Both the position numbers and the translations under genes were made by a program. This document shows positions 36,501 to 63,480 of a stretch of DNA of 64,000 nucleotides, one piece after another. How positions within the stretch are numbered: the first letter of the stretch is position 1; each line of letters opens with the position of its first letter. The notes under the pieces were generated by a model, which saw only the letters and a list, made by a program, of their open reading frames with translations, did no database searches and was not told the DNA's origin. Origin of the DNA: Haloplanus sp. CK5-1 (GTDB taxonomy: Archaea; Halobacteriota; Halobacteria; Halobacteriales; Haloferacaceae); the NCBI RefSeq assembly GCF_037201915.1, contig NZ_CP147505.1:868001-932000 (forward strand). Direction: 5' to 3'.

Positions 36501-37184
36501 TCAGCGTTTGGAACAGACGTCGACGAAGTTGCGCAGGATCGTCAACCCCGTCTCGCCGCTCTTCTCGGGGTGGAACTGCGTCCCGAACACGGTACCAGCC
36601 TCGTTTCCGATCACTGCGGGGAAGGTGCGGCCGTGATCGGTCGTGGCCACGACCGCCCGGTCGTCGTTCGGGGCGGCGTAGTACGAGTGGACGAAGTAGG
36701 CGTACTCGCCGTCGACGGAGCCGCCGCGCCCGCCCTCGACGCCGGTTACGAGCGGATGGTCGCGCTCGACGGAGAGTTCGTTCCAACCCATGTGGGGAAC
36801 CTTCTGTCCCTCGTCGAACCGGACGTTCCGACCGGGGACGAAGTCGAGGCCGACGACTTCGCCTTCGCCGGCGTGGTCGGCCTCCTCGCTCGACGTCAGG
36901 AGCATCTGCATCCCCAGACAGATGCCGAAGACCGGCTGTCCGCGCTCGACGGAGTCGGTCAATGCCTCCCGGTACGGCCCGGCGTTCTCCATTCCCTCGC
37001 GGAACGCGCCGACCCCCGGCAGGACGACGCCGTCGGCGGCGGCGAAGTCGTCGGGGTCGTCGGTGATCGTCACGTCCGCGCCGGCGCGTTCGAGGCCGCG
37101 CGTGGCCGACCGGAGGTTGCCGAGGCCGTAGTCGACGATGACCACGTCCGCGAGCGCCCCCGCCGGCGGTTCGGACAGGCTCAT
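36501..37184 (-). CDS. hisH: imidazole glycerol phosphate synthase glutaminase subunit HisH
   Basis: The protein is 227 residues. It releases ammonia from glutamine for HisF in histidine synthesis. The class I glutaminase triad is present: Cys89 in GICLGMQML, His205 and Glu207 in FHPEKSG. The N-terminal VVIVDYGLGNLRS and PGVGAF are typical. The ATG at 37184 gives the normal length. The frame stays open to a GTG at 37301, and this extra part is discussed as a finding. HisF is not in the window. Confidence 0.94.
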   Translation of the reverse strand: MSLSEPPAGALADVVIVDYGLGNLRSATRGLERAGADVTITDDPDDFAAADGVVLPGVGAFREGMENAGPYREALTDSVERGQPVFGICLGMQMLLTSSEEADHAGEGEVVGLDFVPGRNVRFDEGQKVPHMGWNELSVERDHPLVTGVEGGRGGSVDGEYAYFVHSYYAAPNDDRAVVATTDHGRTFPAVIGNEAGTVFGTQFHPEKSGETGLTILRNFVDVCSKR

Positions 37185-37537
37185 ACCACCCCTTCGTCGG
37201 CGGCCGACAAGTGGGTTTCCGTTCGATCGGTCGACGTATCGTCGGCGGTCGTCCAAGGGTAATTCGATGACTTCTTCACCGGGCTCGACAGCTGCCACCA
37301 TCGCCGCTGGGACGTCGTTTCCACGGTTGTGGAGTGTTGCGAGTACCTAGTCGCCACTCATCCCGGGCCCCCCGTCGGTCAAGTAGCACTACATCGACTT
37401 TGTCACTTCTCGTGTCCAGTACCTCTTGACCTGTACTCGCTGTGAAAATCCCGCAGCTATCCTTCAGTGACCCAATACACGTTCCAGACGACTGTGAGTG
37501 GCTACTACGGATGGCCAAATATACTCTCGTCAGCCAG
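37185..37537. other. gap between hisH and the transducer gene; likely edge of an inserted island
   Basis: No confident gene. On the minus strand the hisH frame is open back to 37301 and, past one TAG, to an ATG at 37361; its translation (ATLHNRGNDVPAAMV and following) looks protein-like. From about 37365 to 37537 the sequence is less GC-rich and holds nothing I recognise. The change in composition fits the left border of the island. Confidence 0.45.
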
Positions 37538-39010
37538 TTACGGCGATGTCTGTGTTCTGGTCGTGACGTTCCGTACCGAGTCTTCGAGTTCCTGCAGCAT
37601 CGTCGTTTGTGCTTCAGTATTTGACACGATTTGGTCGACCGACTGTGAAATCTCATCAGACATCTCGACCGCCTCATCGATCATCGCGGCGATCTCCTCC
37701 GCACTCGCAGCCTGATCGTTGGTCGCATCCGAAACCTGCCCGATGCCCTCCGTCGCCTCCGTAATCGCAGCCACGATTTCGTCGAACCGAGTCATCGCAT
37801 CCTCGACCTGGTCGATTCCCTCCTCGATCTGTTCGGTCGTCGCCACCAGATTCGAGACCGTCTCGTCGGTCTCCGACTGTATCTCGTTCACCATCTCCTC
37901 GATATCACTGGCGTGCTCCTGAGACTCCTCGGCAAGATCCTTGACCTCGTCGGCCACCACCGCAAATCCGTCACCGGCTTCCCCAGCCCGTGCCGCCTCG
38001 ATCGACGCGTTCAACGCCAACATGTTCGTCTGCTCGGCGATATCCGAAATCACCTCCACGATCTCGTCGATGTCGTCGATCCGGCGTTGAAGCCCCTGAA
38101 CGTCATCCGCAACGTCGTCCGCCGACATCGCAACGTCTTCCATCACATCGACAGCGTCATCCGCAGCACTGTTCCCCGACTCCGCGAGATCCGTCGCGTG
38201 TTCGCTCGTCTCGACGACCTCGTCAGCTGTCGATGCAATCTCTTCGACAGTCGCCGAGAGATTCGACACCTCGTCAGCGATGGTATTCATACTCTCAGCC
38301 TGGTCGGTAGTCACCGAGTTGATCTCCTCGGAGCGTTCCGCCACAGCTTCCGATGACTGCTTGATTTGAGTGACGTCCTCGTAGACCTCGGTAATATGCT
38401 CCTCGAGAGCGGCACCCATCTCATTCAACTCGTCGACAATTCCGAGGAACTCGTCCTCGAGGAGTGTGTCTTCTCGGTTATACTCGACGCGCGCCGAGAA
38501 CTCTCCCGCTCCGTAGGCATCAATAGTATCGACGAGCTCAGTGAACAGCGTCTCGAGCTCCTGTTGATACCGGGCGGAATCCGAGCGATCCTGAACGATT
38601 TCTAGGACACCGATGAACTCCTCGTTCCGGTAGACTGGCGTCGCGAGGAACCAGATCTCGGTCCCGTCGATAACGCTCGTATCTTCGTAGACGTATTCAC
38701 CGCTCAACAGCGCGTACTCTTGATTTGCAAGCGAGACGCCGTCGTATTCCTCGTGGGTGGCGTCGGGCCGTTCGACGACTTTCTCAGCGAGCGTCAACGA
38801 TCGCTGGTCTGCGCCGTACAACTCTGCCCCAAGAGCCGTACTACCCAGAACTTGAGACCGGGGCGCGTTCAGCAGTTCGGCAATTTGCTCGTCCCACGCA
38901 ACGACCTGTCCGTCGTCATCGAGTGCGAACGCTGGCAGATCGAGTGTATCGAGAACGACTTGTAAACTGTACTGCGTTGAGGGACTGGCTTCGAGATCGG
39001 CCTGACCCAT
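37538..39010 (-). CDS. soluble methyl-accepting transducer (Htr-like) with PAS domain
   Basis: The protein is 490 residues with no membrane helices. A PAS-like sensor lies at about 15-140 (LDLPAFALDDDGQVVAWDEQI), then a long coiled coil, then the highly conserved signalling tip around residues 320-355 (EQTNMLALNASIEAARAG) and the return helix ending in polar residues. It should signal to CheA/CheW from the cytoplasm, responding to an internal or redox signal. It lies alone, without other che genes. The start is set by a strong TATA box 27 bases upstream. Confidence 0.92.
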   Translation of the reverse strand: MGQADLEASPSTQYSLQVVLDTLDLPAFALDDDGQVVAWDEQIAELLNAPRSQVLGSTALGAELYGADQRSLTLAEKVVERPDATHEEYDGVSLANQEYALLSGEYVYEDTSVIDGTEIWFLATPVYRNEEFIGVLEIVQDRSDSARYQQELETLFTELVDTIDAYGAGEFSARVEYNREDTLLEDEFLGIVDELNEMGAALEEHITEVYEDVTQIKQSSEAVAERSEEINSVTTDQAESMNTIADEVSNLSATVEEIASTADEVVETSEHATDLAESGNSAADDAVDVMEDVAMSADDVADDVQGLQRRIDDIDEIVEVISDIAEQTNMLALNASIEAARAGEAGDGFAVVADEVKDLAEESQEHASDIEEMVNEIQSETDETVSNLVATTEQIEEGIDQVEDAMTRFDEIVAAITEATEGIGQVSDATNDQAASAEEIAAMIDEAVEMSDEISQSVDQIVSNTEAQTTMLQELEDSVRNVTTRTQTSP

Positions 39011-39031
39011 ACACCTCGCTTGGTTGATTGG

Positions 39032-39040
39032 ATATATAAA
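39032..39040 (-). promoter_or_regulatory. TATA box for the transducer gene
   Basis: On the minus strand the sequence is TTTATATAT, centred 26 bases before the ATG at 39010. It supports a leaderless start there and rules out the longer in-frame starts up to 39220. Confidence 0.6.
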
Positions 39041-39194
39041 TGGGGCGAGTATTCCTATGGATTGATACTGAGTAATCTGTATTGTGGGTGAAGCGACTGT
39101 TAACAAGTGAACACGGCGTTTCGGGGGTACGCTGGGCACGTGACGACACTCCGGCACCAGTGGAGACTGCCTCTCCAGGGCCCAGCGAATCACT

Positions 39195-39280
39195 CTATAG
39201 TAGCCTTTGTAAGTCATCACACACCTGATCGCATGACTGCGTTCGATCAGGTGTGCGGACAGTTACAAACGCTACTATAG
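39195..39280. repeat. 86-bp imperfect palindrome, MITE-like or fused IS ends
   Basis: The two 43-base arms meet at 39237/39238. Both outer ends read CTATAGTAGC inwards; both arms then have TTTGTAA and CACACCTGATCG in register. About three quarters of positions match in my alignment. Such a structure is typical of two terminal inverted repeats of an insertion sequence with no body between them. I cannot name the IS with certainty. Confidence 0.8.
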
Positions 39281-39987
39281 TCAGCACCCTGGAAGATTCG
39301 CGTCCCGAACAGATCCGGGAATTCACTCAACTCCGCCGTCGGTTCCACGAAAGCAGGCGTAGAAGATAGCATAAGGAGCCATCGCCGCTCAAGGAACTGT
39401 CTGACAACGTATATGTAGGGGTATCGAAACCTCGGTAACTGGAATATGGCCGTTTCGCTCACAGATCCAGCATGTGTGGACTTACGAGCCACGATAATAG
39501 GCACTCTAAATTACAAACACGCCAGGAATTGTACGAAACTCGAAGAATCTACGGGCGGACCCTGGTGCCACGCACACGTCGACGAAACCCGTCTCGACGT
39601 GGGAGTGATCTGTCCAAAACACATGCTCGCAGGATTCTCACTGAAGCACCAGGCCACGGCACTAATACCCTCCCACGGCTAAAACTACGGAAGTCCCGGA
39701 CACAGGCCGGGCAGTCCACGGCGGGAGGGTCCCCACTCGTACGCGGTGGGATTGTGGGCCGTGCCAGCACGGCTCCCAACCGAGATAGCGGGTTTCATCG
39801 ACCCCCGCGAAGGGTGTGTCTCCCTCCCTCGGAATCACAACCGACGAACGCGGAAACAATCAACGATTCGCTGGCTGTCGGCTTCACGCTGCGACTGACG
39901 TCGTGGACTTCCGCCGCGACACTCGATACCTCGAACTAATACGACCCAGACCCACTCTATTACCGACCGAGTCCGTCCAAACAGCCG
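39281..39987. other. decayed intergenic stretch, no confident gene
   Basis: About 700 bases between the palindrome and the transducer fragment. Short open frames exist on both strands, but none has a family motif, a promoter in the right place or a consistent codon pattern. The sequence at 39660-39830 is rich in small GC-rich inverted repeats (for example GGAAGTCCCGGACACAGG and its surroundings), as expected for mobile-element debris. Confidence 0.45.
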
Positions 39988-40150
39988 CTAGGTGGATTCG
40001 TCGTCAAGACGGGTGACACTGTCCTGGATTTCTCGTATGTTGGCGGCTTGTTCTTCGTTTGCGGCTGCGATATCCCCTACCTGGGCGGCGACTCGTTCGG
40101 ACTGCTTTACTTGCTCGTCGATTATGCTGGCGGATTGGGCGTACCGCCGA
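39988..40150 (-). pseudogene. 3' fragment of a second methyl-accepting transducer gene
   Basis: On the minus strand, ending at the TAG at 39988-39990, the translation reads IIDEQVKQSERVAAQVGDIA and then AANEEQAANIREIQDSVTRL before a short acidic end. This is a typical transducer C-terminal coiled coil with the heptad pattern and the Ala/Gln/Glu-rich methylation-helix character. The frame loses its transducer character beyond about 40150, and no signalling tip or start is present. It is not a copy of the intact transducer's end, so it is the remnant of a different gene. Confidence 0.7.
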
Positions 40151-51822: not shown

Positions 51823-51895
51823 GTCCGGGTTAGGGTAGTGGTTATCCTTCAGCCTTGTGGAGGCTGAGACGCGGGTTCGATTCTCGCACCCGGAC
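51823..51895 (+). tRNA. tRNA-His (anticodon GTG), integration site
   Basis: The sequence starts with the extra G of tRNA-His (position -1), which pairs with C73 at 51895. The acceptor TCCGGGT pairs with ACCCGGA. The anticodon stem CAGCC/GGCTG holds loop TTGTGGA with anticodon GTG. The T arm GCGGG-TTCGATT-CTCGC is intact. A tyrosine recombinase gene begins 163 bases downstream and the GC content drops, so the 3' part of this tRNA is the likely attachment site of the element to the right. No second copy of the tRNA end is visible in the window. Confidence 0.96.
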
Positions 51896-51963
51896 TTGAT
51901 TTTTCGGTTCTCACCATCCTCTACCATCGGTTTTCGCTGTCGCCAATGGAGTGAACTGAACCA

Positions 51964-52062
51964 ATGCTCAAAGACAGCGGAGAAAGTACGAAGATACGAC
52001 CCGACGCCGTATTGCGATTAGCAACCTCTCGGGACAAATACAAATCAGGGGTGAACGCATGA
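51964..52062 (+). CDS. possible 32-residue protein coupled to the integrase
   Basis: An ATG at 51964 opens 32 codons (MLKDSGESTKIRPDAVLRLA and on to GVNA) whose stop overlaps the integrase start as ATGA. Such overlaps are usual between co-translated genes in this window. The product is basic and could be a directionality or regulatory peptide. There is no family match, and the length is short enough to arise by chance. Confidence 0.35.
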   Translation: MLKDSGESTKIRPDAVLRLATSRDKYKSGVNA

Positions 52063-53165
52063 GCCTTCCCGACGACGTTCCCCTCGTAATCAATCCTGAC
52101 CGCGAGTACCTCAATGCTCGCCAACTGGAAGACTACAGACAACACCGTGAAAACGTGCTTGAATGGCTGTATGCCAAAGGAAAGAACCCCGACCGACAGG
52201 AAGGCTACAGTCATGCTGTGACGCGTAATATGGCGTACCGCGTTAGCAAAATCTATCGCTGGTTGTGGGAGCGCAAAGGTCGTTACACGACGAACCTTTC
52301 CCACGACCACGCCGACGCCTACATTAGAGAACTCGCCGGAAAAGATTGGAAAAACTCGAACAAGGCACAGTACGTCAAAGCACTCAAGCGGCTATTCAAG
52401 TGGAAACGTCATGAGCGCAATAGCGACCAATGGGAACCAGAGATTACATTCCATCCGTCGTCAGAAGAATATCAACCACAGGATTTCTTCACTCTTAAAG
52501 AGCGAAAGCGACTCCGTGAGGCGTCCTTAGAATACGGGTCTGTCCCCGCCTACGGGAATCTTAGTCCCGAGGAACGGAGTCGATGGAAAGCGTATCTCGC
52601 ACAACGCTTCGAGAAGCCGAAAGACGAGGTGAAGCCCGATGATTGGGGACGAGCAAATTCGTGGAAGATTCCCTCACTTGTGGCGGTTAGTCTTGACGCT
52701 GGGTTTCGTCCTATCGAGGTGGAACGGACGACCGTCTCGTGGGTCGACACGCAAAATGCGGTGTTGCGAATCCCGAAAGACGAATCCTCGAAGAACCGCG
52801 AGAACTGGACAGTCAGTATCCGAAACCAGACAGCCCGTGCGCTGGCGAACTGGATACAGGAACGAGAGAACTACGCGAAGTACGATGATACCGACACCCT
52901 ATGGCTCACTCGGCGTGAAAATCCGTATCAGTCCGAGAGTCTGAACTACATCCTGAAGCGCCTTTGCGAAGAGGCTAACATCGACACGGCCAATCGCTCG
53001 CTGTCGTGGTATTCGATTAGACACTCTACCGGAACTTACCTAACCCACTTCGAGGATTTAGGTGCCGCGAAGGCCCAACTACGCCACAAGTCGGAACGGA
53101 CGACCATCAAGTACGATAACGCGCCGCTTGAAGAACGCCGGGACGCCCTTGATAAGATGGGGTGA
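52059..53165 (+). CDS. int: tyrosine recombinase/integrase of the element
   Basis: The protein is 368 residues. The N-terminal SAM-like binding domain ends near 130, and the catalytic domain begins near 165. The catalytic residues are visible: Arg in DAGFRPIEVE, a Lys in PKDESSKN, the SIRHSTGTY box with Arg and His, the LRHKSERTT segment, and the nucleophile Tyr in IKYDN. It should insert the element at the tRNA-His. Its codon use is less GC-rich than that of the core genes. Confidence 0.93.
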   Translation: MSLPDDVPLVINPDREYLNARQLEDYRQHRENVLEWLYAKGKNPDRQEGYSHAVTRNMAYRVSKIYRWLWERKGRYTTNLSHDHADAYIRELAGKDWKNSNKAQYVKALKRLFKWKRHERNSDQWEPEITFHPSSEEYQPQDFFTLKERKRLREASLEYGSVPAYGNLSPEERSRWKAYLAQRFEKPKDEVKPDDWGRANSWKIPSLVAVSLDAGFRPIEVERTTVSWVDTQNAVLRIPKDESSKNRENWTVSIRNQTARALANWIQERENYAKYDDTDTLWLTRRENPYQSESLNYILKRLCEEANIDTANRSLSWYSIRHSTGTYLTHFEDLGAAKAQLRHKSERTTIKYDNAPLEERRDALDKMG

Positions 53166-54206: not shown

Positions 54207-54785
54207 TCACCGGAGATGTTCGAGAATTTGCAAAATCCGAAAGCCGAGTTCCCCGTAGTCCTTCTCCGTTTCCCCCGCTTTCTCTCGTAGCGCTTCTATT
54301 CGCCCGGTGTATGCCTTGTTAATCACCAGTTCGAGTTCCGCCCCGGTTTCTCGTTCAAACTGGTCGGCCATATCGTACAGTCCGCTCAATAGATATTTCT
54401 CGTCTCGATTTCCCGGTACCACTGGACTCCATAACTCGAAAACGTAGGAGTCAGCGGAATCGAATAAGTCCAGAACATACTCTCTATCCGCGTTGAATTT
54501 CCGCCAAAGACGCTCAATTGTATACTGGTAGCCGTCGTTTCCATATTCAGCCCATCGGTCAGTATCGGTTGTTCCAGAGTAGAGCAATCCGTCGATGTGA
54601 GTTACAACTTCGCAAGTGTAGACGACTTGTTTTCCCTCGTCTGTGTTGTCCACACCGATTACGTCAATTTCTATTTGATTGCCTTCTTCGTTGGAACGCT
54701 GATTGTAGGTAACTAACTCGCACTCTTCTATCAGTCGAAGATACGAGCCGACGAGAAGTTCACCAGATTCCGGCTGTTCCGTCAT
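54207..54785 (-). CDS. element protein, possible nuclease-like fold
   Basis: The protein is 192 residues. The region GELLVGSYLRLIEECELV, then QIEIDVIGVD and, after 13 residues, TCEVVTHID, has the spacing of a PD-(D/E)xK nuclease core: a helix with Glu, an Asp strand, and a Glu strand. However, the expected Lys after the second acidic residue is Val. It may be an inactive or variant nuclease, or another alpha/beta fold. The rest is helical. It is convergent with the 329-residue protein gene. Confidence 0.6.
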   Translation of the reverse strand: MTEQPESGELLVGSYLRLIEECELVTYNQRSNEEGNQIEIDVIGVDNTDEGKQVVYTCEVVTHIDGLLYSGTTDTDRWAEYGNDGYQYTIERLWRKFNADREYVLDLFDSADSYVFELWSPVVPGNRDEKYLLSGLYDMADQFERETGAELELVINKAYTGRIEALREKAGETEKDYGELGFRILQILEHLR

Positions 54786-56871: not shown

Positions 56872-57348
56872 ATGAAAACTATCGACGCCGAGAGACTTGA
56901 GAGTACCGACCTTGACCAGCGCGACGTTCGCGCCCTAACGGAGTATATGACGACGCTTCCGCTCGGGGGAGAGGTGTACTCCGTGACGACACAGAGCGGG
57001 TCAGAGTACCGTGTAGACGCCGTTGAAGACCGGTGTACCTGTCCTGACGCCGAGTACAACCTACCAACCGACGATGGTCGCAAGCGGTGTAAGCACGCCG
57101 CGAGGGTCGCCTTCGCCACGGGAGAGCGACCGATTCCGGCATGGGTCGACGCCGACGAGGTAGACGCCCAGCTGGGGGAACACGTCGAAGGTACGCCGAA
57201 GGTCGCCATGACCGACGGTGGCGTGACGTTGGCCTCGTTCGCTACCGAGGAAGATGACGAAGATGGGTGCTGGTGCGACGGGCATGATATGCCGTGTTTC
57301 GACTGTTACAACGCCGGTCGCCGTGACCTTCCGGGTGAAGACGAATGA
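56872..57348 (+). CDS. SWIM zinc-finger protein
   Basis: The protein is 158 residues. The SWIM finger CxCxnCxH is formed by Cys55, Cys57, Cys73 and His75 (CTCPDAEYNLP...CKHAA). A second cysteine cluster lies near the C-terminus (Cys133, 135, 142, 145). SWIM domains bind DNA or protein partners. The protein is acidic elsewhere. Its stop overlaps the start of the next gene in ATGA, and a structured leader with a strong ribosome site precedes it, which suggests translational control. Confidence 0.9.
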   Translation: MKTIDAERLESTDLDQRDVRALTEYMTTLPLGGEVYSVTTQSGSEYRVDAVEDRCTCPDAEYNLPTDDGRKRCKHAARVAFATGERPIPAWVDADEVDAQLGEHVEGTPKVAMTDGGVTLASFATEEDDEDGCWCDGHDMPCFDCYNAGRRDLPGEDE

Positions 57349-57482
57349 CGGACACTCCGAGGTGTCCCGGTTGCGATAGGGAACTCGAATACGGAGCGTT
57401 GTTGGACTGTGTGACCGGCCAGCGCGGATGGGCCTGTAACGAGTGTAACACGGCCTACTCGTCGCTTGAGGTGGGTCAATGA
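57345..57482 (+). CDS. 45-residue zinc-ribbon protein
   Basis: The protein is 45 residues. CPGC (7-10) and CNEC (31-34) flank a short loop (DRELEYGALLDCVTGQRGW), a zinc ribbon. The ATG overlaps the SWIM stop, and the TGA overlaps the next start. The function is unknown; it is the middle gene of a three-gene coupled set of zinc-binding proteins. Confidence 0.75.
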   Translation: MTDTPRCPGCDRELEYGALLDCVTGQRGWACNECNTAYSSLEVGQ

Positions 57483-57754
57483 GCCGGCTGTCTCCGGCGG
57501 CGGCTCTGAACGGCGTACAGTGTGGGAACGTGTGTTCCGGCTGTCATCGGGGAATTCGGACGGGTGATAAGGCTATCGCGTATGGAACTTACTACGACGG
57601 CGACGGCTGGATTGTCAGACGAGTGTGGTGTTCGGATTGCGGGAAGACGACTATCGGATTACCGACCGACGGTGCTGACGAGGTAGTGGTGGAAGCCGTA
57701 TATTGGCGGTCAGGGCTGGTCGGTGCCAAGACCGTGGACCGGAGTCGGCCCTGA
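57479..57754 (+). CDS. small cysteine-rich (zinc-binding) protein
   Basis: The protein is 91 residues. CGNVCSGCHRG (about 15-25) and CSDCGKTT (about 51-58) supply two cysteine pairs. The fold may be a treble-clef or ribbon, and the rest is alpha/beta. The start overlaps the 45-residue gene by 4 bases. The stop lies 46 bases before the TBP-like gene, whose own promoter lies between. Confidence 0.72.
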   Translation: MSRLSPAAALNGVQCGNVCSGCHRGIRTGDKAIAYGTYYDGDGWIVRRVWCSDCGKTTIGLPTDGADEVVVEAVYWRSGLVGAKTVDRSRP

Positions 57755-57769
57755 CACAGACCAACCGAG

Positions 57770-57779
57770 TTTATATTTG
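57770..57779 (+). promoter_or_regulatory. TATA box of the TBP-like gene
   Basis: TTTATATTTG is centred about 27 bases before the GTG at 57801. This supports a leaderless start there, giving a 182-residue TBP-length protein, rather than the longer in-frame ATG at 57723. Confidence 0.65.
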
Positions 57780-57800
57780 ACAGTCGTCTTTATCGAAATA

Positions 57801-58349
57801 GTGGTAGAGCCAACTGTCGCAAACGTTGTCGGGACAATCAATTTCCAGCGGGAGATTGCCTTGGACGCTCTTGCCGATACGTTCTCCCAGCGTGACGAGA
57901 TTACTGACGTGACCTACGAACCCGGCGAAAACCATTGGCTACAAACTCATTTTGCGCCCGACGATACCTATGTCCCATTTTATCGGAGTGGCAAATGTTC
58001 TATTGTTGGTGGTAACTCTGTCGAACATTTCTACGAAGTGGCCGAGCGGGTCAATAACGTTATGCGAGACATTCTTGAGTTAGAGTACGAACCACAGGTA
58101 GAAATCAGTAACATCGTTGCTACTTGGGATACTGGTTCCCCGATTTCATTAGAGGCCCTCACAATCGAACTTGGAATGACTCAAACCGAGTACGAACCAG
58201 AACAATTCCCCGCACTCATGTATCGGGGAGAAGATTACGTGATACTGGTATTTTCGAGCGGCAAAGTTCTCTGCACCGGCTTAAGTAACCTTGACGACGT
58301 AACTGATGCGATTGAGGATATGGTATCCCGGCTTCAAGCGGTCGTGTAA
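57801..58349 (+). CDS. divergent TATA-binding-protein homologue on the element
   Basis: The protein is 182 residues, the length of an archaeal TBP core, with the twofold repeat. Repeat 2 is well kept: ISNIVATWDTGSPISLEAL, YEPEQFPALMYR and VFSSGKVLCTG. Repeat 1 is degenerate: VANVVGTINFQREIALDAL, then NHWLQTHF in place of the FPGL segment, and PFYRSGKCSIVGG. The Phe residues that kink DNA are retained in repeat 2 and partly replaced (Trp) in repeat 1. It may replace or modify the host TBP at element promoters. Host genomes carry several TBPs, so it may also be an acquired copy. Confidence 0.85.
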   Translation: MVEPTVANVVGTINFQREIALDALADTFSQRDEITDVTYEPGENHWLQTHFAPDDTYVPFYRSGKCSIVGGNSVEHFYEVAERVNNVMRDILELEYEPQVEISNIVATWDTGSPISLEALTIELGMTQTEYEPEQFPALMYRGEDYVILVFSSGKVLCTGLSNLDDVTDAIEDMVSRLQAVV

Positions 58350-58436
58350 TCACAAGTCTTCTTCGCTAAAAATCAACTTCGCGCCGTTCTCTTCAAGTCA
58401 CTCGGCAATCACATTATCGTCGGAGATAGGTTTTCA
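58350..58436 (-). pseudogene. possible remnant of a gene tail
   Basis: On the minus strand, ending at 58350, the frame reads ISDDNVIAE, a TGA, then LEENGAKLIFSEEDL and a stop. Both sides of the inner stop look like haloarchaeal coding sequence, as if a Trp codon had become a stop. There is no start and no further upstream frame. It is too short to be sure. Confidence 0.25.
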
Positions 58437-58442
58437 GACTAC

Positions 58443-58497: not shown

Positions 58498-58737
58498 ATG
58501 GCACGAACAGTGAATATTGAGGTAATTTGTGATTCAGATAGCGAAGGTGGGATTGAGACGTTCGGTGTTGCTTCCGAACACAGGCCTGACTTACCGGAGC
58601 CGTTTAATAACTCACTTCAGGAATGGGTTCGAGAGAATTTCGAGAATGAACTTGATAAAGGTCAAACAATTTCTGAAGCGGGCGAGATGGTGTATGAGCC
58701 TAATGGCGGAATCATAGAGTTTCGGACGAAAGATTAG
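58498..58737 (+). CDS. small acidic element protein of unknown function
   Basis: The protein is 79 residues without cysteine pairs or membrane helices. The sequence alternates short strands and helices (RTVNIEVICDSDSEGGIETF, LQEWVRENFENEL, IIEFRTKD). The ATG at 58498 is the first after a TATA-like TTTTAACTC about 27 bases upstream, so it is probably leaderless. An operator-like palindrome lies just before that promoter. The family is not recognised. Confidence 0.55.
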   Translation: MARTVNIEVICDSDSEGGIETFGVASEHRPDLPEPFNNSLQEWVRENFENELDKGQTISEAGEMVYEPNGGIIEFRTKD

Positions 58738-58772: not shown

Positions 58773-59467
58773 TTAATTATCCCCGCCAGCATCAGGGAAC
58801 AGTTCGCGCACTATTCGGAGCCGCTGAAGTTTCTTGAGTTCGTTCCAAATCCTTGGTCGCTTTTCTTTGGGAATCCCGTACAGGTCTAACACCGCACGCT
58901 CAATTTCCCAATCCAAGTCCTCGTCTATCTGTTCATCGTCATCGGTGGCGCTCTTCACCAAGTCTACAAACTCGTCGTAGGCTTTCTTTTCATCAGGGTC
59001 GTCAAAGTCAACAGCGGGGATAGGGAGCGACATGATGAAACTCTGTGGGTGGCGAGGATAAGATTGCCATTCGACAATCCCCTTCGTCTTGGAATAGTAG
59101 TAGAGCATGGCCCGTGAGTTCAGGAAGCCGAGGAAATACTCAACGTCATACTGGTCAAATGGTTCGTCCTTCTCTTCCGCCGGTCGAAAGGACATTACAG
59201 ATTTCAAACATCTGTCGTCAGTATAGTCAACTGTTGCATAGAATCCTACCCCGGCCTCACGAATGAGCAACTTGGGGGGTTCAAACCGCCATGCGTCCTT
59301 CAGTCCTATCCCTTCCACATCGGCGTCAATGTAGGCATTATCGGTAGTTCGGTACCGGTTGACGTGTTCTCCAAAGTAAATCGGCGTATCACTCTCTTTT
59401 GTAGGCTCTTCTTTCACGATTCGACGAGTAGCAATAGCGTCCTCAAATTCAAACTCTTCTCCACAGT
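58773..59467 (-). pseudogene. C-terminal fragment of the split type IIG restriction-modification gene
   Basis: The fragment encodes a target-recognition domain of the TaqI-like C-terminal type: EHVNRYRT, KLLIREAGVGFYATVDYTD and EYFLGFLNSRAMLYYY, then a helical end (WNELKKLQRLR). It lies on the far side of the insertion sequence and has no proper start of its own. Together with the fragment at 60980-63322, minus one copy of the 5-base duplication, it makes one frame of 1,010 residues. The join reads CDHC then GEEFEFEDAIATRR, completing a zinc-ribbon-like motif. Confidence 0.85.
59463..59467. repeat. left target-site duplication ACAGT
   Basis: ACAGT stands directly before the left inverted repeat of the insertion sequence and again directly after its right one (60980-60984). 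A 5-bp duplication is what ISH3-type elements make. Confidence 0.8.
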
Positions 59468-59576
59468 CGCTAGTTGTCCACTCTGGCTCAAGAGACCAGT
59501 TTCTGACACGTAGTGATTAGAATGACGCGACTGAATCAGTCGCCTGATTCAGCCGCTGCCCGGATTCCTGTGTGTG

Positions 59577-60767
59577 ATGGAGTTCCCAAGACTCAAACGC
59601 ATCCTCACAGATCCGGACGAGTACATTTCGAGCAGCCAGTTGAAGTCTCTTAGCATGGAGTTGCTTGAGCTGATACCGATGGAAGGAATCGAGGGCTCCG
59701 GCCTCGATTCCGAGGAAATCATGGAAGTCGTCTTACGAGCTGCTGTTGACACAACCTCCGTCAACGGTGTCACGACGAACACTGAGGACACGCCAAACCG
59801 CGAGCCAGTGATGGACTGGTTGCACACCTTGGAGAAAGAGCCGATGCTTGATGCTGTCAACGATATCCTCGCACTGGTGGCGATGACGGTTCTCGACCGC
59901 GGCGGGTCGAGAACCATCTGTCTGGACTTCATGGACAATCCGTTCCACGGTCATCCAGACGACGAGGACGAGTTCAGGAGAATGGAAGCACGAGATGGAA
60001 CCACGAAGTGTCACCGGTACTGTACTGCGTTCGTCATCGCGCAGGGAAAGCCACTCACACTGGCGGTTGAACCAGTTGACGGCGAGGACAGCAAGGCCGA
60101 CGCGGTCGAGCGCGTGCTCGCCCGCGTCGAAACATACCCATTCGAGACCGACCAGATCCTCATGGACAGGGACGCCTTTGTCGGGGAGTTAATCGGTATT
60201 CTTCGGGAGACAGCACCGCCAGTCTTTCCGGTCATAACCCGGAAAGACTCGCTCCGGAAGAAACTCTCCAAGGCCGCGTCACACATGACCGAAGAGACGA
60301 TTTGCGAAGGGAAAGAGCACGAACAGACGTATCCACTGGCGGTGAACGTTACCTATCAGAACGGTGACCGCGGAAAGTCTGGTGTGAAAGCGACAGGATA
60401 CGCGGCGTACGGTCTGGAAGACCGCACGCCCGCGCAAGTCGCTACGACCTACAACAAGCGTTCACGGATAGAGAAGAGCTACGAGAAGTTCCGAGAAGCG
60501 CGTGCCCTGACAACAACGCCATCGACGACAATCCGGCTGTTCTACGTGGGCGTGGGGTTTCTGTTAGAGCAGTTGTGGCTCGTGTTACAGTGGGCCGTGC
60601 TCGCCCGACCACGGCGGGGCGGGCGAGCACTTCCGAAAACATTCGCGTTTGGTGACGCGTTTTTGCACGGGATCGAACGGGTGTTAGACGACGAACTCGG
60701 CTGGAAAGAGAAGTACCGGACTAACGGAGAAGGACTGCCAGCAGGATACGAACACGGACTCGGTTGA
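59577..60767 (+). CDS. ISH3-family transposase
   Basis: The protein is 396 residues from the ATG at 59577 (a GTG one codon earlier is also in frame). The N-terminal part (LKRILTDPDEYISSSQLKS, then EGSGLDSEEIMEVVLRAA) and the catalytic strands are typical: the first Asp in CLDFMDNPFHG, the second in ILMDRDAFVGEL, and a late Glu in KRSRIEKSYEKFRE, consistent with a DDE enzyme. It has the full length and no frameshift. It lies inside the inverted repeats. Confidence 0.92.
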   Translation: MEFPRLKRILTDPDEYISSSQLKSLSMELLELIPMEGIEGSGLDSEEIMEVVLRAAVDTTSVNGVTTNTEDTPNREPVMDWLHTLEKEPMLDAVNDILALVAMTVLDRGGSRTICLDFMDNPFHGHPDDEDEFRRMEARDGTTKCHRYCTAFVIAQGKPLTLAVEPVDGEDSKADAVERVLARVETYPFETDQILMDRDAFVGELIGILRETAPPVFPVITRKDSLRKKLSKAASHMTEETICEGKEHEQTYPLAVNVTYQNGDRGKSGVKATGYAAYGLEDRTPAQVATTYNKRSRIEKSYEKFREARALTTTPSTTIRLFYVGVGFLLEQLWLVLQWAVLARPRRGGRALPKTFAFGDAFLHGIERVLDDELGWKEKYRTNGEGLPAGYEHGLG

Positions 60768-60770
60768 GCC

Positions 60771-60793
60771 GCCTCGCTTCGGCGAAGCGAGGC
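60771..60793 (+). terminator. perfect hairpin after the transposase gene
   Basis: GCCTCGCTTC-GGC-GAAGCGAGGC has 10-base perfect arms and a 3-base loop, starting 3 bases after the transposase stop. No T-run follows, so it may stabilise the mRNA end rather than end transcription. Confidence 0.5.
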
Positions 60794-60979
60794 TGGCGAA
60801 CAGCGACAGCTGTCTTCGGAGATCAGTCTGAACGACAACTACAGCCAAAACAATCCAGATTTGTGACTCTTCCTCAACTCTCCGTGGCGTCAGATGTGTA
60901 CTTCGTCTCGTATCAGCGTCCTTACCGTGTTAGACCGGACTCTTGTTGCCGCCGCCATCAAGAGAGTGGACAACTAGCG

Positions 60980-63322
60980 ACAGTGGTCACACGTCTTTGA
61001 GTAATAGCCCCCACCTTTCGATTCGGCTCGTTTTCGCGGAAACGGACTCCATTCCGTACAATATGGACACTGTAGTATCTCCCCCTCACGCCCCGTTTCG
61101 TCACCACGACCGTTATCGGCAACCTCTGACCAATCTACCGTGTCCGCTTCCATCGTGTCCAGAATCTCATGGTCGTCCTCACCGGCCCAAATATCAAACA
61201 CATAGTCCTCGTTTTCAGTAAACCGCCGCTGTTTTGTAACGTGCTTCTTTGTCTGAATGATACTCAATAAGGCTTCTCCACCTGTTCCAAGTATTTGATT
61301 GCGGTCTTCTTTTTGAAGTAGACTCACCTCAACATCGTGGTCTGATTGTGCTTCTCGGTTCGTGTATTGTACAATAGCGGTAGCCGCGAAAACACTGTCA
61401 AAAATTCCTTCCCCCAATTTGTGAACTCTATCTAACTGATGGTCATCCACCAACCAGCGCCGTAGAGGAACAGAATCCTCGTTGAAGATACTGTCCGGAA
61501 TAATGAACCCGAGAGTACCGTCTTCTCTCAACAGGTCGTCTCCTAATTCTAAAAAGAGTTCATAAGAATCGTATCGGCCCTCGGCCAGTTCATACCCTTT
61601 GTCGCTTTTGAGCCACGCGTCGTATTCTTCTATTTCAGCACCCCACGGTGGATTGCCGACAATCACGTCAAAGCCCCCTCGTTCCTCAAAGATGTGGTCA
61701 AACTTCTCTTCCCATTCAAACGCACCCATTTCTTCGGCTTCCTCTACTGTAATATCGAAAATATCAGCCACTTCCTCGGGCGACCCGTTCAACAGGCTGT
61801 TCCCGGTGCGAATGTTGTCTTCGAGTATCGCTGGTAGTTTCTCGTTCTTTTCCAGTGCCTTCAATAGAAGATTAACCGTCGCAATTTCGGTCGCCTGATA
61901 GTCCAAGTCCACTCCGAAGATGTTGTTCCGAAGGATATGCCGCTTGTAGTCGGACGGCACTGTTTGGGCCGCTGAATACTCTTGTATGCCCATATCCCCG
62001 TTCACTGACCGAACCAGTGACCGGAACTCCTCGTAAGCGTCTACCAGCAAGTCAAACGATTTAATCAGGAAACTACCGCTCCCACACGACACGTCCAAGA
62101 CAGCAATATCCTCAATAGCGTTGAACTCGTCACGGGCGGCTTCAAAATTCGGCTCGTCACCTTCCAACTCCTCTCGCACCCTTGCCATTATATCGTCAAT
62201 CCGGTCACCCAATACGCTCTCAACGATGTATTCAACCACCGGAACTGGCGTATAGTAGATACCTTCTTCTTGACGTTCATCCGGGTTTTCAACCAGTTCC
62301 AAGTCCTCGGATTTGTCCTCAATAGCATGACCAAGGTAGTCCTCGTAGATGTTCCCGAGTACGTCGGCGTCGATATACGAGAAGTTGTAGTCGTACAACG
62401 AGTCGATAGTATCTAACAGTACTTTGTTTGAAATTTCGTAGTCTTCGCATTGATGTTCCGCGAACAACTCCGAATTGTAGACTGAATCGAAATCTCGGAA
62501 CGCGTTTTTTAGGTCACGAACCAGTGTCCGTACGTCGGGATTAATCGTGGTCTGTTTCCAAGACTCGGACATATTCAGCAACGTGTCCGCTGGAATGACC
62601 CCACGGTCTTCCGAGACTCTCATAACCACTACCCGGTCTAAAATCCTCTGTACACTGTCTCGAAGGTCTTCCATTGATAGGTCAGAATGGGAGTCATGTA
62701 TGTCCTGTGTAAGACGCCGACGTGCTTCAGATAGAACATTCAGAATTTCTTCGGTGACTGTCTCACGCTCTCGCGTTCTTTCCAATCGTCCAAGTGACCC
62801 GTCCGCGACAGCGGCTTTAGAGAGATTTGCCAGTCGCTCAAATCCATCTTCAGATGTGTATTCATCCGCTGAAAGAGTGAAGACCAGCCCGCTTTCGAGG
62901 TCATCTTTGCTGACGTGCGTAAAGTAGAGTCGGAGTTCCTCGAAGTTGGTCAAGACGGCCCAATCACACCCTTGGTGCCATGCGTAGTCTATCGCCTGTT
63001 CGACGTAAGACTGGGTTTCGCCACTACTGACCCGACGACTCCCGTCAAGGTCTTCCGAGAACGACTTTGCCTCAATGAAGAACTGTTCGCGTCCATTGAG
63101 ACTCAATGCGTAGTCGGCTTCCCCGACAAGTGTCCGCTGTTCAGGTTTCACTTGGTCGGTCGTCGTATCCCACCCGAGCGCTCGAAGAAGGGGATTAATG
63201 AATTGCTGTCGGACGGCGGCTTCCTTCATTTGCTTCCGCTCGTGGGGAGAATGAGATTGGTAGCCGTCTACCAAATCCTGTATGGCGTCCTTGTCAATGT
63301 CTTCAGTTTGTTGAACGCTCAT
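60980..63322 (-). pseudogene. N-terminal part of the split type IIG restriction-modification gene
   Basis: This part encodes about 780 residues from the ATG at 63322. An N-terminal nuclease domain has EADYALSLNG and FIEAKSF (PD-(D/E)xK, Glu-Ala-Lys near residue 83). An N6-adenine methyltransferase follows, with motif I VLDVSCGSGSFLI (about 405-417) and motif IV GNPPWG (about 555). The frame ends inside the insertion sequence (at CDHCR, stop). The target-recognition part is beyond the insertion. The fragment probably lacks target recognition. A complete type IIG enzyme would both cut and methylate. Confidence 0.88.
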
Positions 63323-63480
63323 ATACGAAGTTATCGTCACTCCGAATCCTCATCTTATCAAACCATCGTAAGCCGACATAGACGAGACGGTCTACACCCA
63401 TTCGACCTGACTGACACCGACGACCGCGAGGTTGTCAAAGAGTTCTTCGCGTATTCTGACTCGGTTGGCCGGTCGCTCTT

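Follow-up and report, generated by a model that had tools for sequence, protein, structure and literature searches.

Haloarchaea keep several TATA-binding proteins (TBPs), and the reason for this is a long-standing question. In bacteria, small DNA-binding transcription proteins termed C proteins, which are helix-turn-helix dimers, are encoded beside restriction genes. The described haloarchaeal proteins that most resemble the one reported here are the TbpC-like TBPs. Their loss of the N-terminal pair of intercalating phenylalanines has been noted before, and the explanations considered were that function is lost or that the role is specialised in some unspecified way (Becker et al. 2014, PMC4230888). 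The word 'restriction' is absent from the text of that paper. Deletion of tbpC in Halobacterium NRC-1 gave no apparent phenotype in the laboratory (PMC2121645). The loss of the N-terminal Phe pair is therefore known, but a linkage to defence was not found in the literature: our search of open-access publications returned no paper that ties a haloarchaeal TBP to restriction.

The TBP gene that we studied lies in the window, by which we mean the whole 64,000-nucleotide stretch of Haloplanus sp. CK5-1 DNA that was analysed. Its features are the following.

57770 to 57775, + strand: TTTATA box of the TBP gene, 31 nt upstream of the GTG
57801 to 58349, + strand: TBP paralog, 182 aa (open reading frame with a leaderless GTG start; Pfam, structure matches, AlphaFold)
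57930 to 57941, + strand: codons for N44-H45-W46-L47, replacing the repeat-1 FPGL (coordinates from sequence)
58188 to 58217, + strand: codons for the repeat-2 stirrup EYEPEQFPAL, residues 130-139, the TFB-contact and Phe-kink loop, intact

A first-pass annotation had proposed that this open reading frame encodes a TBP with two repeats, and this identification is confirmed. The match to the TBP profile is significant (PF00352, E=6.2e-34, Pfam) and falls in two stretches that correspond to the two repeats. Solved TBPs, archaeal ones among them, match the protein by sequence with E-values down to 3e-27, and NCBIfam TBP models also hit it, with scores under their curated cut-offs. An AlphaFold model built from six relatives (pLDDT 88.9) has the form of a two-repeat, pseudo-symmetric saddle. 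In a structure search, this model aligned over its full length to TBPs, most of them at Z 17-19.6, including 1AIS, and the matching TBPs include complexes with TATA DNA and TFB or TFIIB. The TTTATA box 31 nt before the GTG supports both the start at 57801, which the first-pass annotation had chosen correctly, and a probably leaderless transcript. A TATA-like, AT-rich box is likewise present at -29 to -31 in 8 of 9 representatives of the clade. The Haloplanus genome encodes two further TBPs, both high-scoring and both distant from the window TBP.

The window TBP differs from canonical TBPs in its first repeat. The pattern of intercalating phenylalanines is F-F-F-F in canonical TBPs and N-Y-F-F in the window TBP, with the repeat-1 pair replaced by N and Y and the repeat-2 pair kept. 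The protein is thus a TBP homolog that falls outside the canonical definition of two intercalating Phe pairs. The reported substitution of NHWL for the repeat-1 FPGL is real, and so is the good preservation of the second repeat, which retains F/F and the EYEPEQFP stirrup. The NHW motif is invariant in 22 sequences, including that of the window, from four haloarchaeal families, and the SGK strand of repeat 1 is also remodelled (V to S, T to V). Among TBPs linked to defence genes (see below), canonical consensus residues are kept at 46% of positions in repeat 2 versus 27% in repeat 1. EYEPEQFP is retained in these linked TBPs, whereas the pseudo-symmetric face of repeat 1 is not. In known TBP-TFB complexes, the repeat-2 stirrup loop bears the TFB contacts. 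The window TBP retains EPEQFP in its stirrup and may bind TFB and TATA DNA.

Searches for relatives delimited a distinct subfamily. In plasmid searches, the nearest matches are 60-68% identical to the window TBP, and the other plasmid TBPs listed are below 38%. The window subfamily is present at E<1e-78 in 18 of 392 genomes of the order, and an intermediate at 1e-51 in one; ordinary TBPs come up at 1e-33 or weaker. Family-wide scans added further subfamily members, giving a distribution over four haloarchaeal families, on chromosomes and on plasmids. In a tree of 77 TBPs, the defence-linked ones cluster with support of 99/98 (40 linked TBPs and one row later shown to be linked), the exceptions among linked TBPs being one long-branch row at the base of the cluster and one stray. 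The window clade itself has support of 100/99. Deep placements in this tree are unsure because some branches are very long. The window TBP falls outside the ordinary chromosomal TBPs, a placement on which the first-pass annotation had staked its reading.

The same large clade (99/98) also contains, though not as sister to the window TBP, a TBP of plasmid pNRC200. This gene ends a methylase-helicase-TBP cluster (L126:2086-7549). It is most likely tbpC, because it is the only full-length TBP there that lacks the N-terminal Phe pair, so that its tbpC identity derives from the Phe pattern. The pNRC200 cluster has an ISH3-like element that separates two annotated methylase genes; the window methylase gene is likewise interrupted by an insertion sequence.

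Relatives of the window subfamily were not found in IMG/VR. For the wider clade, IMG/VR yielded one halovirus TBP next to a methylase, and five other viral contigs (L165-L169) have FFFF TBPs without methylase or restriction neighbours. Haloviruses HRTV-9 and HJTV-2 and an IMG/VR contig (L011, L012 and L163) carry TBPs that lack the Phe pair, beside their own methylase or restriction genes.

We found that the constant genomic partner of the clade is a methylase-based restriction or defence system, not tRNA-His or zinc-finger genes. In four annotated plasmids, the TBP adjoins type I restriction genes and a SprT protease. We mapped 22 loci, the window included (20 subfamily members and two intermediates), and a methylase or HsdR gene lies within 6 kb of the TBP in all 22, and within 2 kb in 19. 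The search models behind this count were built from these same loci, so the controls carry the weight: a restriction gene was near none of 20 canonical (housekeeping) TBPs and in none of 17 arbitrary chromosomal regions. Of 21 accessory TBPs, linkage was confined to those that are divergent. The partners, as tested with Pfam and PADLOC, comprise type I systems, type IIG systems, a DISARM-like methylase with a PLD-helicase, and a methylase with a DEAD helicase.

Two further data sets gave the same picture. In a census of 45 genomes, drawn evenly and searched with Pfam models only, an N6_Mtase or Eco57I methylase lies within 10 kb of 16/18 divergent TBPs versus 0/51 others (p=8e-14). 'Divergent' here means that the best repeat scores below 90 bits, a line that was set after the scores were seen, although it sits in an interval, 89 to 97, that is empty of scores. 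For the fresh set, we gathered 21 wider-clade TBPs from one family by sequence alone. In this set, a restriction or helicase gene lies within 240 bp of 19 TBPs, one TBP is in a BREX-type locus and one is on a 3-kb contig, so that all 20 testable loci are defence loci.

Linkage is matched by the Phe pattern. None of 42 linked TBPs is FFFF (NYFF 23, YYFF 9, SYFF 4, other 6), while 32 of 35 unlinked TBPs are. One TBP that was first scored as unlinked proved to have a methylase 136 bp away once its flank was examined. There are exceptions: the neighbours tested for L083 (IHFF) include no defence gene, L146 has no methylase or helicase match, and L145 has a short TBP open reading frame, no methylase and a helicase match 4 kb off. 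A chance neighbourhood is rejected by the canonical-TBP, arbitrary-region and census controls together with the fresh set, and an association specific to one element is rejected because the partner element genes vary between loci.

The linkage of these TBPs to restriction and defence loci is well established by these data. One reading, to which we assign a probability of roughly 0.8, is that this haloarchaeal TBP clade is a dedicated part of antiviral defence loci (type I, IIG, DISARM-like and BREX), a portable component that passes from one restriction type to another and that viruses, too, carry next to methylases of their own.

Several loci showed additional features. Many type I loci that hold a window-type TBP also have a second divergent TBP, mostly SYFF (L007:9739-10272; L008, L009, L010, L018, L056 and L058), which in L007 matches PF00352 at E=3e-27. 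Some modules thus carry two non-canonical TBPs, and three are present in genome G440 (L066). A divergent TBP lies between BrxC (2004 bits) and a TmtA homolog at L189:460-12559, a BREX-type locus. A gene for a SprT-type metalloprotease adjoins hsdR in nearly all type I loci (L007:10269-10976 and equivalents), and this protein may belong to the haloarchaeal type I system.

The window TBP is carried by an element of 16.7 kb between two tRNA-His copies, with the following features.

51823 to 51896, + strand: tRNA-His, left end of the element
52059 to 53165, + strand: tyrosine integrase, 368 aa (Pfam PF00589, E=1e-15)
56872 to 57348, + strand: SWIM zinc-finger protein, 158 aa (Pfam)
57478 to 58439, + strand: block homologous to Natrinema gari and genome G276 (Cys-rich gene, TBP and 90 bp beyond)
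57479 to 57754, + strand: Cys-rich protein, 91 aa, adjoining the TBP; common to N. gari, G276 and G125
58498 to 58737, + strand: open reading frame, 79 aa, between the TBP and the restriction gene; no Pfam match
58773 to 59417, - strand: C-terminal part of the type IIG-like enzyme, 214 aa (TaqI_C specificity domain, Pfam)
59461 to 60986, + strand: insertion sequence that splits the restriction-methylase gene (24-nt terminal inverted repeats, 96%)
59574 to 60767: transposase of that insertion sequence
60974 to 63340, - strand: N-terminal part of the same type IIG-like restriction-methylase, 788 aa (HSDR_N, Eco57I and N6_Mtase, Pfam; PADLOC)
C1:936569-936641: second complete tRNA-His copy, 16.7 kb downstream, beyond the window

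The claim that the TBP is element-borne at tRNA-His holds, given the integrase that follows the tRNA and the second tRNA-His downstream, as does that of zinc-finger neighbours, in that one SWIM zinc-finger gene and one small Cys-rich gene precede the TBP. Within the window, the GC content of the element is ~49-58%, versus mostly 64-72% in the chromosome before it. A tRNA-His 3' end of ~26 nt at C1:944363, 7.8 kb past the second complete copy, suggests tandem integrations. Elsewhere in the window, a GC dip (0.56-0.59) at 37001-40000 is possibly a second island. An open reading frame of an unrecognised family (54207-54785, - strand, 192 aa) is ~80% identical in N. gari and G276, where it is also upstream of the TBP.

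Comparison with these relatives shows that the TBP changes partners. The TBP of N. gari, which shares 80% identity with the window TBP, accompanies a type I system, and the window TBP a type IIG system. DNA homology with N. gari and G276 stops 90 bp past the TBP, and the restriction system beyond it differs. A fixed enzyme subunit would have difficulty working with both types, whereas a promoter factor could do so, and this is the chief ground on which we prefer a regulatory role.

As to the form of regulation, we favour a TFB-dependent, promoter-selective initiation factor for the defence module, because the TFB-binding stirrup and the C-terminal Phe pair are kept; we regard this proposal as an even bet. 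In this scheme, the C-terminal repeat with its stirrup, both intact, would bring in host TFB and kink the box in its upstream half. The downstream half would be recognised differently owing to the changes in the N-terminal repeat (F to N, F to Y, V to S, T to V). The restriction genes nearby would then need the TBP of the element for their expression, or take their timing from it, much as C proteins set the timing in many bacterial restriction systems. TFB and DNA binding, target promoters and timing are inferred here, and so is the promoter-selection role suggested in the first-pass annotation.

Several observations constrain this proposal. Gene order varies, with the TBP convergent, upstream in the same orientation, downstream or even between hsdM and hsdR, so there is not a fixed regulatory layout. 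The window's own restriction gene is split by an insertion sequence, which is a counterpoint to the regulator view. We rejected a variant promoter motif because no distinct shared motif was found in promoters of the clade, which have ordinary TATA-like boxes. We also rejected a dedicated TFB partner: in searches with two host TFBs as queries, no TFB gene was found in 40 of 41 loci, and the single TFB found is ~8 kb away.

The alternative that survives best, though we consider it unlikely, is that the TBP is a subunit or DNA sensor of the defence complex, with its saddle bending or clamping DNA for a methylase, nuclease or helicase and not acting in transcription. Such a non-transcriptional role is possible because TBPs occur in the bacterial TOTE and TALON systems, where no TFB partner is expected, and these systems are a precedent (PMC12458937). 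The genes also often overlap or abut, as in pNRC200, where the TBP gene and the helicase gene upstream of it share 4 bp, and many TBPs are 0-240 bp from a methylase or helicase. However, the occurrence of very similar TBPs beside different restriction types speaks against a subunit, as does the retention of the TFB stirrup but not of the pseudo-symmetric repeat-1 face.

Less probable still is a negative regulator, in which the TBP would bind TFB or the promoter without initiation and so hold the restriction genes low until they are needed. This is the dominant modifier of the host TBP that the first-pass annotation had suggested, here confined to the module; for a modifier of the host TBP itself we found no evidence. 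Without the N-terminal Phe pair, kinking would be expected to weaken, and the contacts to TFB to persist. However, the N-terminal residues show no random loss but a specific new form (NHW) that is conserved, and the present data do not separate activation from repression.

That the TBP serves mobile-element promoters generally, with defence genes nearby only as element cargo, we judge improbable. The window copy is indeed on a tRNA-His element with an integrase, and several relatives are plasmid-borne. However, distances are mostly <2 kb and often <100 bp, whether the locus is chromosomal, plasmid-borne or viral; TBPs with higher scores, among them accessory copies, are unlinked (0/51); and the element genes around the TBP vary whereas the defence gene is constant.

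Finally, a decaying, non-functional TBP duplicate, a possibility raised for TbpC-like genes (PMC4230888), might explain the absence of two of four intercalating phenylalanines from the window TBP and the unremarkable NRC-1 tbpC deletion (PMC2121645), but it is so improbable that we reject it, given dN/dS values of ~0.06-0.13 between relatives (with synonymous sites near saturation in the window's own pairs and not in other pairs), NHW unchanged in 22 sequences from four families, and an intact frame and promoter. Constraint on repeat 1 is similar to that on repeat 2, and because repeat 1 is under strong purifying selection, the earlier label 'half-degenerate' is wrong; the window gene is better called a defence-locus TBP.

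These results suggest that archaeal defence loci have acquired a dedicated component from among the core transcription factors of archaea and eukaryotes. TbpC-like genes, which had been suspected to be dead, gain a testable job from their near-constant link to restriction and defence, and Halobacterium NRC-1 offers a direct test, since a tbpC deletion strain exists (PMC2121645). A missing N-terminal Phe pair is, moreover, a simple marker for finding defence loci. If such TBPs control these loci, archaea would have their own equivalent of restriction controllers, with a general transcription factor as its starting material.

Among known systems, canonical archaeal TBPs (TbpE type; Pyrococcus woesei 1AIS, M. 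jannaschii 2Z8U) share with the window TBP the saddle, the central Asn pair, and the C-terminal stirrup and Phe pair, but they have all four phenylalanines, act as housekeeping factors and are unlinked to restriction methylases here (0/51). TbpC-like TBPs have likewise lost the N-terminal intercalating Phe pair, kept the C-terminal pair and are accessory genes, but their first Phe site is Y, in contrast to N-H-W in the window clade. TOTE and TALON resemble the window in having a TBP within a defence locus, and TALON has features of its own, namely a TPR-cold-shock fusion, a YprA-like helicase and a NERD nuclease alongside the TBP (cited in PMC12458937); TPR, OB/cold-shock and YprA-NERD partners were not detected with Pfam among the tested proteins of the window element. 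With C proteins, the window TBP shares small size and a place beside restriction genes, which is the analogy we propose, but it is a TBP saddle, not a helix-turn-helix protein, and would need TFB and RNA polymerase to act.
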